Below are positions 30,331-39,695 of a stretch of 64,000 nucleotides of DNA, one piece after another (position 1 is the first letter of the stretch; every line of letters starts with the position of its first letter). The position numbers and the translations under genes are program-made. Under the pieces are notes generated by a model. It searched no databases. It saw nothing but the letters and a program-made list of their open reading frames with translations, and had not been told where the DNA came from. This DNA is from Psychroflexus tropicus DSM 15496 (GTDB lineage Bacteria; Bacteroidota; Bacteroidia; Flavobacteriales; Flavobacteriaceae), in the NCBI RefSeq assembly GCF_000378765.1, contig NZ_KB905342.1:248001-312000 (forward strand), in the 5' to 3' direction.

Positions 30331-31674
30331 ATGAATAAAGAGGTAAAAGAATTTTTAGATTACGTTTCAGATAGAAACCCAAATCAACCAGAATTTTTAC
30401 AAGCTGTGGAGGAAGTAGCAGAAGCTATCATTCCATTTATGGAGGAAAATTCTAAATATAAAAACTACAAGTTATTAGAGCGCATGGTTGAGCCAGAGCG
30501 AGTTGTCATGTTCAGAGTTACCTGGCTAGATGACAATGGAGAGATCCAAGTTAATCGAGGGTATAGAGTACAAATGAACTCTGCTATTGGGCCATATAAA
30601 GGTGGGCTTAGATTTCATCCTTCAGTAAACTTAAGTATCCTGAAATTTTTAGCCTTTGAGCAGGTTTTCAAAAACAGCCTAACAACACTTCCAATGGGTG
30701 GTGGCAAAGGAGGGTCTGATTTCGATCCTAAAGGTAAATCAGATAATGAGGTCATGCGCTTTTGCCAGAGTTTTATGACAGAGCTTTACAGACATATTGG
30801 AAATGACACTGATGTTCCTGCTGGGGATATAGGTGTAGGTGGTAGAGAAGTAGGATATATGTTTGGACAGTATAAACGTATTCAAAATGAATTTACCGGT
30901 ATTTTAACTGGTAAAGGACAATCTTACGGAGGCTCTCTTATAAGACCAGAAGCAACGGGATATGGAAATGTATACTTTACCAAAAGCATGCTGGAAACTC
31001 AAGGCGAAAGCTTAGAAGGTAAAACTATATTGATATCTGGCTCGGGGAATGTCGCTCAGTATGCTGCAGAAAAAGCTATTGAATTAGGGGCTAAAATTTT
31101 AACTATGTCAGATTCTAGTGGGTATATTTACGATGAAGACGGAATTGATAGCGATAAGTTAAGCTTTATCATGGAGTTGAAGAATGAGAAAAGAGGGAGA
31201 ATAAAAGAATATCTGGACCAATACCCGGACGCAAAATATGTAGATGGTAAAACACCATGGAGTGAAAAAGGACATATTGCTATGCCTTGTGCTACTCAAA
31301 ACGAATTGCTGGAAGATGATGCTAAAAAACTAGTGGACAATGGCTGTATTTTGGTAGGTGAAGGAGCTAATATGCCATGTTCTCCAGAAGCCATCGAAGT
31401 ATTCCATAACAACAAAATATTGTTTTCACCTGGAAAAGCATCTAATGCTGGTGGTGTTGCGACTTCTGGATTAGAAATGTCTCAAAACTCATTGAGATAC
31501 AGCTGGACTGCAGAAGAAGTTGACAATAAACTTAAACAAATCATGACCGATATTCATGAAGCCTGCGTTACCTATGGTAAAGATGAAACAGGCTATGTCG
31601 ATTACGTTAAAGGTGCTAATATCGCAGGATTTGTAAAAGTAGCAGATGCTATGATTGCTCAGGGTGCTGTATAA
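30331..31674 (+). CDS. gdhA: NADP-type glutamate dehydrogenase
   Basis: 447 residues, the size of hexameric GDH. It aminates 2-oxoglutarate to glutamate in ammonium assimilation. GGLRFHPSVN (about 91-100), catalytic Lys126 in PMGGGKGGSDFDPKGKSD, the dinucleotide fold GSGNVAQYAAEKAIELGA (about 236-253) and SNAGGVATSGLEMSQN near 375-390 are all present. NADP preference is inferred from overall similarity to GdhA, not from a diagnostic residue. A strong terminator follows. Confidence 0.96.
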   Translation: MNKEVKEFLDYVSDRNPNQPEFLQAVEEVAEAIIPFMEENSKYKNYKLLERMVEPERVVMFRVTWLDDNGEIQVNRGYRVQMNSAIGPYKGGLRFHPSVNLSILKFLAFEQVFKNSLTTLPMGGGKGGSDFDPKGKSDNEVMRFCQSFMTELYRHIGNDTDVPAGDIGVGGREVGYMFGQYKRIQNEFTGILTGKGQSYGGSLIRPEATGYGNVYFTKSMLETQGESLEGKTILISGSGNVAQYAAEKAIELGAKILTMSDSSGYIYDEDGIDSDKLSFIMELKNEKRGRIKEYLDQYPDAKYVDGKTPWSEKGHIAMPCATQNELLEDDAKKLVDNGCILVGEGANMPCSPEAIEVFHNNKILFSPGKASNAGGVATSGLEMSQNSLRYSWTAEEVDNKLKQIMTDIHEACVTYGKDETGYVDYVKGANIAGFVKVADAMIAQGAV

Positions 31675-31795: not shown

Positions 31796-34087
31796 ATGAG
31801 ATTTCTTGTTTTCCTCATTCTTTTGTATCCAAGTTTGCTCATTGGACAAGACTTTTCTCAACGTTGGCAAGGCTACTTCTCCTACAATAATATTACCGAT
31901 TTAGATGAAAGCGAAAACAAAGTGTATGCTGCATCAGAGAACGCCTATTTTATCCACGATATAGCGACACAGACCACAGAAACCATCACTTCAATTCAAG
32001 GACTTTCTGGAGACCCCATTTCTAAAATTTACCACTCAGAGGCCTTTGGACTAACTTGTGTAGGCTATGAAAACGGACTACTTCAAATAGTCATGGATAA
32101 CAATCAAAATGTATTTACGATTGTAGACATAAGAGATAAGGTATCGATTTCACCAGAGAATAAACGCATCAATGATTTTTTTGAGTTTGAAGGGATACTT
32201 TATATCTCAACAGATTTTGGGATAGCTCAGTATAATCTTGAGAATTTAGAATTTGAAGAATCATTTTTTATCGGTAATAATGGAAGTCAAATCCAAATTA
32301 ACCAAATCACAATAGCTGAAGGTAAAATTTATGCGGCCACTAGTGTAGAAGGCATCAAAACAGCAGATTTTAATAACCCCAACCTGATTGATTTTCAGAA
32401 TTGGCAAACCGAATATCCTGGTAACTGGAATGGAGTGCTTTCTTTTTCAAATTTAGTATTTGGCCTTAGGAATAATAATACCATCAACAGGCTCGAAAAT
32501 GGAGTAGCAAGTCTATTCGAATCAATAGGCTCCAATGTTACAGGTTTCAATGTAAGTGGAAATCAATTAGTAGTCACTGCAGCAAATCAAGTTTTAGCTT
32601 ACAATACGGATTTGAATTTAGAAGCATTTTTTAACTAGATTCAGGACGAAGATTTTAATATTAACACTTCTGTAGCCAGTAATGATGGATACTTTCTGGG
32701 CCACGCCAGTTTGGGTTTATTGGGCTTTGAATCTGATAGTAACCTGAATTTTTCTGAATTAAGTCCAGCTGGACCTCTTTTAAATAGAATATTTAGCCTG
32801 GAAGCCACCTCAACAGACCTTTGGGTCACCTTTGGAGAATACGACCAGTTTTTAAATCCCTTTCCTTTGGATAGAAGGGGCTTAAGCAGATTAACACTTG
32901 AAAACTGGATCAATATTAATGTAGATGAACTGAACAATGCAGCCGAATTATCGGATGTTTCAATAGATCCTAATAATCCAGAGCGGGTTTTTGTCAGTAG
33001 CTTTTTCGATGGGTTATTAGAGATAGAAAACAATGAGCTGATTCAGCAGTATGATTCCTCAAATAGCTTAATTGAGGGTGTTCCAAGCAATGTCAATGAC
33101 AACAGAATTGGTGCCAGTGTATTTGATTCTCAAGGAAATTTATATTTCACCAACTCACTTTCTGAAAATCAGCTAAAGCGACTTAATGCAAATGGTAGTT
33201 TTGAAAATGTAGAGGCTTCTGATGGATTTTTAAACCCTACAGAAACATCTTCAGCAAAAATTATAGCAGACAATAATGACAATATTTATGTGGCTACAAC
33301 AAGAGAAGGCATCCCGGCTTACAATCCAAATACCGGTGAGTCAGCCCTAATTTCTAGTAATGTTCAAGGTGTCGATTTCCCGGATACTTTCAATGAAAAC
33401 CCAAATATAACGGCCTTAGAAATCGACTTGAATTCCCGTTTATGGATTGGTACCCAGGCTGGTCTAAGAGTCATGTCTAATCCTGCGGCTATATTTGATG
33501 AAAATGCAAATGTCAACGTGTTTCCTATTATTATCGAAGATGTAGACGGTTTGCCTCAGGAACTGCTTTTTGAACAATTTATTACTGATATCGCTACTGA
33601 TGGTGCCAATAATAAATGGATTGCTACTGCTGATTCTGGAGTCTTTCAGGTGTCACCAAATGGCAGAGAAATTCTAAATATTTTTAATGTCAATAACTCA
33701 CCGCTTCCCACAAACAGTGTGCGAACTATTGCTATAAACCCAACCACTGGAGAAGTGTTTTTAGGAACTACAGCTGGCTTATTATCCTATTCCAGCAGAA
33801 TTACTTCTGGAAACGACACCTTGGAAAACTTAAGGGCATTCCCAAATCCAGTTAGACCCAATTATAATGGGCTAGTTACTATTGATGGATTGATTGATGG
33901 TGCCAATGTTAAAATAACCGATGTGACTGGTAATCTTGTTTTTGAAGAATTTGCAAGCGGCGGAACGCTGCTTTGGGATACCAGAGCTTTTGGAAAACAT
34001 AAAGTAGCCTCTGGTGTGTATTTTATAGTAGTTACTGGTGAAGACCAAATCGAAACAAAGGTGGGTAAAATAATGATTATTCGCTGA
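31796..34087 (+). pseudogene. porZ: porZ-like type IX secretion protein, interrupted by one in-frame TAG
   Basis: A single 764-codon frame broken only by TAG at 32636-32638. The first half (280 residues) has a signal peptide (cleavage near LLIGQ) and starts a two-component-regulator-type beta-propeller (WQGYFSYNNITDLDES, SIQGLSGDPISKIYHS). Past the stop the same frame runs on without a gap (IQDEDFNINTSV...) through the second propeller to a type A C-terminal sorting domain (FPNPVRPNYNG, ASGVYFIVV, KVGKIMIIR). Total length, architecture and position before recO fit PorZ of the type IX attachment complex. The downstream half has no signal peptide, so reinitiation would not give an exported protein. 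CAG to TAG is the simplest cause. Mutation, sequencing error or readthrough are all open. Confidence 0.82.
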
Positions 34088-34806
34088 TGCAACTTAAAAC
34101 AAAAGCCATTGTCATATCCACCCTAAAATATGGTGAAGCAGACCTCATCGCGAAATGTTTTACTCTAGATAAAGGACTCGTTTCTTATATGCTAAAAGGT
34201 ATTAGAAAATCCAAGCGTGGAAAGTTGAGGGTATCCATGTTCCAACAGTTATCCCTTTTAGAAATTGAAGCGTTTCACAAAGAAAATAAGAAACTTCAAT
34301 ATATGAAGGAAGTAAGAAGTTTTCATCCTTATCAAACTCTTCAATCCAATGTTTACAAATCAACAATGGTTATGTTTCTTGCTGAAGTTTTAAAAGGAAG
34401 TATACAAGAGGAAGAAAAAAATCAAGCCTTATTTCATTTTTTAAAAGATAGTTTTTTATATCTGGATCAGTCGGAGACTTTTAAAAATTTTCATCTCTTA
34501 TTTATTGTAAGACTCACTGAGTTTTTAGGATTCTATCCTGATCAACAAAGTATAGATTTTCCTGTTTTTGATATGCTGAATGGAGTTTTCCAGCTCAAAG
34601 AATACAATTCTTATTCCTTCAACGATTCAAATTCAGGTCTATTAAAAAAGCTTTTAAACGTCTCAGGTTTTGAAGAAGTCAACCAAATAAAACTCAATCA
34701 AGAGAGGAGAAAGAATTTTCTTGACTTTATGATGTTGTACTATGAATTGCATATGCAGGGCTTTAAAAAGCCAAAATCATTGGAAATCCTACAACAAATT
34801 TTTTGA
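34087..34806 (+). CDS. recO: DNA repair protein RecO
   Basis: 239 residues, the usual RecO size. It shows the N-terminal OB fold (KTKAIVISTLKYGEADLIAKCFTLDKGLVSYMLKGIRKSKRGK) and a helical C-terminal domain. RecO anneals strands and loads RecA with RecR in gap repair. The four-Cys zinc motif seen in some RecO proteins is absent, as in many Bacteroidota. Its ATG overlaps the porZ stop (TGATG), so translation is coupled to porZ; the amber codon upstream may therefore be polar on recO. It converges on djlA with a 4-bp gap. Confidence 0.93.
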   Translation: MQLKTKAIVISTLKYGEADLIAKCFTLDKGLVSYMLKGIRKSKRGKLRVSMFQQLSLLEIEAFHKENKKLQYMKEVRSFHPYQTLQSNVYKSTMVMFLAEVLKGSIQEEEKNQALFHFLKDSFLYLDQSETFKNFHLLFIVRLTEFLGFYPDQQSIDFPVFDMLNGVFQLKEYNSYSFNDSNSGLLKKLLNVSGFEEVNQIKLNQERRKNFLDFMMLYYELHMQGFKKPKSLEILQQIF

Positions 34807-38339: not shown

Positions 38340-39695
38340 TTAACTATTCACTCGGGAAGTAAATTGCTTTAGCTTTCCACTTTCTGAGCGTTCCAGCTCG
38401 TCCTTTTTTTCGAAAAACACACCAAGTCCTTTTTCTAGATAAGTTTCTATGGCCTTAGTAATATTTTCTTTTTGATGTGAACTTAATTCAACTTCAGCCT
38501 TATATTGAATTACAAATTTAGACAAGTCTGTTTGAATTATTTTAATTTCTTTGACTATTCCTGAATCTTCAATAACCGATTTCGTAACATAGTAAAAACT
38601 TAATGCAGGTACTTTTTTTCCACTTGGTAAGACAGCAAACTCATTGGTTCTACCCGTTAGCGATTTTAAAATCAATTTTCCAGGAGCAGACTTTTCATCT
38701 ATTACTCCCCTATCACCGATGTTATAGCGAATAAAGGGGTGAGCCTTGTTGTAAAGTGAGGTGATGACAATATTACCTTCTTCTCCATAGGGCAAAGCCT
38801 TACCACTGTTGTCTACTACTTCAACGTAAAGAGTCTTAGTATTGAGGAGCCACTCTCCTGTGGTATTTTCGAAAGCAATCACATCTAGTTCACTGGCACC
38901 GTATTCGTTGACAATCATCACTCCAAGTTGTTGTTCTAATAGCGCTCGATCATCATCAAACAGCATTTCACTGGTAGTTATACAAAGTTTTAGACTGGGA
39001 CATACGTCTTTTAAAATGATATTTTGGTCGCGTAAGAACTTAGCAAACAAAACAATAGAGCTGGTATAGCCGTTGATATAATCAAAGGGCTTTGTTTTAA
39101 ATAGTTGTAAAAAATTATGGAGGTTTTCAACAGATAAATCAAAAATATCTAGACGATGCCTGTTAGCAAGCAGATCCTTGAGTCGTTCTTTTTGGTGACC
39201 CACAAAACCTTTGGGAATCCCGTAAAATCTAGCTTCAAGCGATGCATTCATATCTATTCCATGTTGCTGGTATAACCACATAATATGAGCCCAGGTTAAA
39301 GCATGTGCATACTTGTCTTTTGCAAAAATGAAGGGATTCCCACTGGATCCTGAAGTTTTATTAATAAAAACCTTAGACGTTTTAAAGTCCTTACTTAGGC
39401 GGTCTTTAAGGGGTTTCTGCAGATCGGCTTTGGTCATGATTGGCAATTGGTTCCAGTCCTCAAAGGACTCTAACTGGGCAAAAGCAGCGTAACTCGGATT
39501 ATGAGTTAAATGATAATTGACAATTTCATTTCGTCTCGATCTCAAATGCATCTCCATGTCTTCATCTGGAATAGCTAAAAGAGATTTGAATTCTCTTTCA
39601 GCTTTACGAATAGGAAATCCTTTGAGGCTTAAAATTTTTTTGAATCGATTCACAGAAATTTCAGTGCTTTCATTGGCGAAGCAATTTACAAACAT
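38340..39695 (-). CDS. Adenylate-forming enzyme, phenylacetate-CoA ligase/CapK family
   Basis: 451 residues of the PaaK/CapK group of AMP-binding enzymes: phosphate loop KTSGSSGNPFIFAKD (about 113-127), an EYGASELD motif (about 262-269), NIGDRGVID and the hinge region GRTNEFAVLPSGKKVP. It activates a carboxylic acid as the adenylate and may transfer it to CoA or a carrier. No acyl carrier or paa gene is adjacent, so the substrate is unknown; CapK-like members often act in surface polysaccharide or quorum-signal pathways. It diverges from purD with only 34 bp between start codons. Confidence 0.82.
   Translation of the reverse strand: MFVNCFANESTEISVNRFKKILSLKGFPIRKAEREFKSLLAIPDEDMEMHLRSRRNEIVNYHLTHNPSYAAFAQLESFEDWNQLPIMTKADLQKPLKDRLSKDFKTSKVFINKTSGSSGNPFIFAKDKYAHALTWAHIMWLYQQHGIDMNASLEARFYGIPKGFVGHQKERLKDLLANRHRLDIFDLSVENLHNFLQLFKTKPFDYINGYTSSIVLFAKFLRDQNIILKDVCPSLKLCITTSEMLFDDDRALLEQQLGVMIVNEYGASELDVIAFENTTGEWLLNTKTLYVEVVDNSGKALPYGEEGNIVITSLYNKAHPFIRYNIGDRGVIDEKSAPGKLILKSLTGRTNEFAVLPSGKKVPALSFYYVTKSVIEDSGIVKEIKIIQTDLSKFVIQYKAEVELSSHQKENITKAIETYLEKGLGVFFEKKDELERSESGKLKQFTSRVNS

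Follow-up and report, generated by a model that had tools for sequence, protein, structure and literature searches.

The closest described counterpart of the locus considered here is PorZ of Porphyromonas gingivalis (PG1604, PDB 5m11), which, according to the accessible text of PMC8545088, binds anionic lipopolysaccharide and has the sortase PorU as an interaction partner. Its layout, as given in the accessible text of PMC5121618, comprises propeller 1 at residues 39-322, propeller 2 at residues 29-34 together with 335-679, and a C-terminal domain at 692-776. In Flavobacterium johnsoniae, PorQ, PorZ and PorU have been described as the attachment complex in the available part of a 2025 report (PMC12618676), and the gene Fjoh_0707 was assigned as the porZ orthologue in PMC10936215, where, in the part of that paper available, the gene is intact and its deletion was deliberate. 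The same part of the paper shows that the porZ deletion lowered surface colonisation, much reduced the biofilm and abolished the zorbs, which its authors regard as motile biofilms and whose loss they tie to group movement; nonspreading colonies were formed by one of the nine mutants, CJ2302 (a sprA deletion), the porZ deletion being among the other eight.

The window, i.e., the whole stretch of 64,000 nucleotides analysed here, comes from a Psychroflexus genome (a 3.0 Mb draft of 16 contigs, with completeness 100 and contamination 0.09) and carries a gene of the same family, with the same order of propeller 1, propeller 2 and C-terminal domain, which is interrupted by a stop codon (Table 1). 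The initial annotation had read the segment from 31796 to 34087 as a single frame open save for this amber codon, and the open reading frames of the plus strand bear it out, the TAG being in frame with the ATG at 31796 and the frame being open again from the next base up to the TGA at 34085-34087. The length of 764 codons given with that reading is right as a figure, but it counts both stop codons, the internal TAG as well as the terminal TGA; the coded residues are 280 in the 5' piece and 482 in the 3' piece. Owing to the TAG, the locus lacks the uninterrupted frame expected of a PorZ gene; judged from its sequence, it is porZ by descent, with no production of a PorZ protein implied.

Table 1. 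Features of the interrupted porZ locus and the adjoining gene, in window coordinates
Feature	Position	Strand	Content	Models and structures matched
5' porZ piece	31796..32638	+	start, N-terminus of Sec type as judged by eye, most of propeller 1	PF21544; NF052228, positions 5-268
In-frame TAG	32636..32638	+	the one internal stop in the 150 listed PorZ matches	
3' porZ piece	32639..34087	+	last part of propeller 1; propeller 2; sorting domain (T9SS); own TGA	NF052228; TIGR04183; PDB 5m11
Downstream gene	34087..34806	+	ATG begins on the last base of the porZ stop (TGATG, 34085-34089)	

The family assignment is based on the model NF052228 (T9SS_PorZ, 757 positions), in which the match of the 5' piece (E-value of 1.3e-69) is followed by that of the 3' piece at positions 273-757 (E-value of 7.4e-151); because the two pieces match consecutive stretches of one PorZ model, it is not by chance that the frame is open again after the TAG. 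The search tool read across the TAG and gave the whole locus 746.8 bits (cut-off 260), reporting "1 TAG" inside, and the pieces scored singly gave 504.1 and 235.5 bits, the latter value being below this cut-off. The 5' piece was also recognised by PF21544 (PorZ_N_b_propeller; 83.9 bits, cut-off 27, E-value of 1.8e-23). The sorting domain, which had been placed in the second half from the beginning, is found there by TIGR04183 (32.7 bits, cut-off 23), although the Pfam model PF18962 (Por_Secre_tail) remained under its own cut-off (22.7 bits against 27).

With respect to the known structure, the 3' piece matched PDB 5m11 by sequence with an E-value of 1.1e-41, the 5' piece alone gave no match in the PDB at 0.001, and the profile of an alignment that joins 13 relatives with both window pieces matched 5m11 with an E-value of 4.5e-75. 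In this profile alignment, counted by hand and weak in this region, the stop is placed approximately at chain position 268, which corresponds to about residue 286 of the P. gingivalis protein, provided that the last chain residue is R776. By this approximate placing, the stop cuts within propeller 1, some 36 residues, or roughly one blade, from its end. The residues on both sides thus continue one beta-propeller, as had been supposed from the sequence, and, the stop being inside this first propeller, neither fragment makes a whole domain. That the locus nevertheless holds a pair of functional genes, or a PorZ assembled from two separately made parts, is hardly credible. Such an arrangement would agree with the conservation of both parts and with an open reading frame of 458 residues that begins at TTG 32711, inside the 3' part, but it is opposed by the position of the stop inside a propeller, by a signal-peptide-like N-terminus that was seen (by eye) in the first half only, by the in-frame starts of the 3' piece within 300 bases of the stop, which are three in number and all TTG, and by the rows of relatives that extend to this point, none of which (0 of 24 from the genus and 0 of 66 others) is divided here.

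The source genome groups with Psychroflexus, its closest named record being P. gondwanensis (82%), for which the genome G004 is taken here, and the genus set consisted of 27 genomes, including the source genome itself. In 23 of the 26 others, porZ runs without interruption in one frame of 766-799 codons, counted from stop to stop; in the remaining three, it is either frame-shifted (G012) or cut by contig ends (G016 and G018). Among the 25 genus genomes that can be judged, the gene is therefore interrupted in two, the source genome and G012, and in different ways. The column of the stop codon is occupied by a sense codon in all 24 genus rows that reach it (25 rows in total, that of G018 falling short) and in each of the 66 rows that lie outside Psychroflexus, drawn from the 80 best among 287 relatives; this count leaves out the two rows of G012 (L028 and L029), two weak matches that belong to other genes (L030 and L031) and the repeats of genus genomes (L032-L045). 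The initial annotation had proposed comparing this codon in close relatives and had regarded two separate genes there as evidence against its reading. All the rows that reach the codon carry a sense codon, and no judgeable relative splits porZ at this point. A conserved two-gene arrangement is rejected in view of the single-frame relatives, and so is a conserved amber readthrough, as the stop is kept in no row, of the genus or beyond it, that reaches the column. The column is by itself variable, since 709 of the 763 columns vary less and eight different residues occupy it within the genus.

On a wider scale, the PorZ profile search covered 395 genomes with a minimum completeness of 90, and 256 of them had a match over the cut-off. 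One of the 150 best matches listed, that of the source genome, contained an internal stop, and the other 149, as counted by hand, were without; since the list runs from the highest score downwards, any broken porZ outside the best 150 would be missed. Many porZ genes of Flavobacterium align along both window pieces. A search with the 3' piece for a second porZ copy matched just one place in the source genome at an E-value of 0.001, and the search with NF052228 gave a second match in this genome, outside the best 150 listed. The porZ of G012 (L179:2950-5251, minus strand) is likewise interrupted, but through a change of frame, not a stop codon, near L179:3713-3765, about two thirds along the gene; the genes that flank it, the counterparts of the window genes at 30331 and 34087, align in one frame, and the break in this porZ may be an error.

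Known cases of amber readthrough and of TAG reassignment resemble the locus in having an in-frame TAG inside a conserved gene, and differ from it in that here the stop is not conserved, no tRNA with the CUA anticodon was found, TAG serves as a normal stop and release factor 1 is present. The tRNA list, incomplete as it is (150 of 269 candidates were scored, and Ile-gat and Ala-tgc are missing), contains 33 genes, none with a CUA anticodon, while the gene prfA for release factor 1 was found with 489.7 bits against a cut-off of 423.25. Seven of the 54 open reading frames of at least 100 amino acids in the window end in TAG, one of them being the porZ piece; of the other six, all four that have a counterpart in P. 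gondwanensis end where the counterpart ends, and two have no counterpart. The earlier opinion that TAG is not generally reassigned is backed by these genes together with release factor 1, and the suppressor tRNA that had been suggested as a check does not appear among the tRNA genes found. Reassignment of TAG, as well as an amber suppressor tRNA, is accordingly unsupported.

Another possibility is that the stop is leaky, i.e., near-cognate misreading of UAG yields enough full-length PorZ to keep the gene under selection. This would be in line with the conservation of both porZ parts and with the eight residues tolerated at the column in the genus, owing to which the inserted residue would probably be harmless. 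However, the lack of a CUA anticodon among the tRNA genes found, the presence of release factor 1, the four TAG-ended window genes that end as in P. gondwanensis, and the sense codons in all 24 genus and 66 other rows make a leaky stop quite improbable. Still further from expectation, and to be considered very improbable, is that the anchoring of surface proteins is set by the efficiency of UAG readthrough, with enough full-length PorZ made by misreading.

The age of the lesion was assessed from the rate of protein change. The unique changes in the window porZ and in that of P. gondwanensis, counted with five outgroups, were 52:62, 56:55, 52:54, 52:60 and 52:52, with chi-square values that did not exceed 0.88 over the full length and 1.07 over a part, i.e., with no acceleration in the window gene; relative to G026, the window porZ has changed more slowly, the chi-square reaching 7.5 over the entire protein and 8.14 over its second part. 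The window porZ has retained every one of the 129 columns that do not vary among the 23 complete relatives from the genus, although this test is weak, as six intact relatives tested alike differ at 0 or 1 columns. The dN/dS ratio was obtained for few pairs because of the saturation of synonymous sites in most of them. It follows from the lack of acceleration and from the 129 kept columns that the stop arose late compared with the split of the species, is tolerated or leaky, or is not real. An old pseudogene is rejected in view of the lack of visible decay in both tests.

A stop that is not real would be an error of base calling or of assembly in a gene that is truly intact, and this is unlikely. 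It would suit a porZ without trace of decay in a draft assembly of 16 contigs, and the internal stop in porZ is the only one in the 38 open reading frames of P. gondwanensis that were matched in the window (out of 67 tried, these 38 covering it from 18411 onward only), a pattern that a single stray error would also produce. Against an error stand the lack of any other defect in the portion of the window that was compared, with no frame change flagged in the 38 frames, and the completeness and contamination values of the genome. Substitution errors are rare in assembled isolate genomes, which counts against an error as well if the genome is that of an isolate.

From the stop itself, the family, the intact relatives and the absence of visible decay, we infer that the Psychroflexus strain has probably lost a functional porZ through a recent single-base nonsense mutation. 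The change appears to be an ordinary loss of function, with no new genetic mechanism; 278 of the 6858 single-base changes possible in the 762 sense codons of porZ create a stop, and such an event thus calls for no special cause. Translation would halt at codon 281, and Sec would export the N-terminal fragment, which would then probably be degraded in the periplasm. This fragment would be devoid of the last part of propeller 1, of nearly all of propeller 2 and of the C-terminal domain, the latter being the part by which PorZ crosses the outer membrane. The 3' piece is not expected to be exported either, given its apparent lack of a signal peptide and the nearby in-frame starts that are TTG only.

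In related bacteria, secreted proteins depend on PorZ for their anchoring at the cell surface. Since PorZ in Porphyromonas hands the lipopolysaccharide anchor to the sortase PorU, the type A cargo in a strain with the nonsense allele would probably be secreted, yet poorly anchored. The type A sorting domain has 44 matches in the source genome, porZ itself being one of them, and the type B domain has five, three of them above the cut-off. PorU, PorV and SprA are without internal stops in this genome, and a wider decay of the secretion system is rejected as far as these three genes are concerned. By analogy with P. gingivalis and F. johnsoniae, surface adhesion and biofilm formation would probably be hit more than single-cell gliding. 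The effect on gliding predicted in the initial annotation is doubtful: the porZ deletion of F. johnsoniae still spreads, although the loss of zorbs, linked to group movement, speaks in favour of some effect, as far as the available text of PMC10936215 goes.

If real, the allele would be a naturally occurring loss of function in a gene of the attachment complex, within a genome whose PorU, PorV and SprA remain open, and it would provide a way to study PorZ beyond the oral pathogen in which it has mainly been studied; the strain may also serve poorly as a reference for surface attachment in Psychroflexus. A naturally occurring nonsense allele of porZ was not found among the papers listed by a literature search that had most subscription journals outside its scope, and nothing was found within the same scope on phage resistance combined with type IX secretion and nonsense mutations in Flavobacterium.

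The gene downstream of porZ, which we take from its sequence to be recO, aligns with all 239 residues of the neighbouring gene of P. gondwanensis at 72% identity. In the 25 genus rows, the porZ stop overlaps the next ATG by one base in 18, is directly followed by the ATG in three and shows neither arrangement in four; the early stop in porZ could lower the expression of the downstream gene via polarity or lost coupling.

Apart from porZ, a subtilisin-like cargo gene of the source genome (L182:3939-6786, C4, minus strand) seems broken, with an open reading frame of 446 residues (a subtilase, as judged by eye) and another of 516 residues that bears a sorting domain overlapping in different frames at an A-rich run; its counterparts are longer single frames in some relatives, and pieces are also present in P. 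gondwanensis, G013 and G020. A sorting-domain match with one in-frame TAA (L167, G000:C4:158493-158708) belongs to the same cluster as this locus. Within the window, the gene at 38340-39695 shares only 26% identity with its positional counterpart in P. gondwanensis, against 72 and 77% for the flanking genes, and it has perhaps been replaced in the source genome or in P. gondwanensis.
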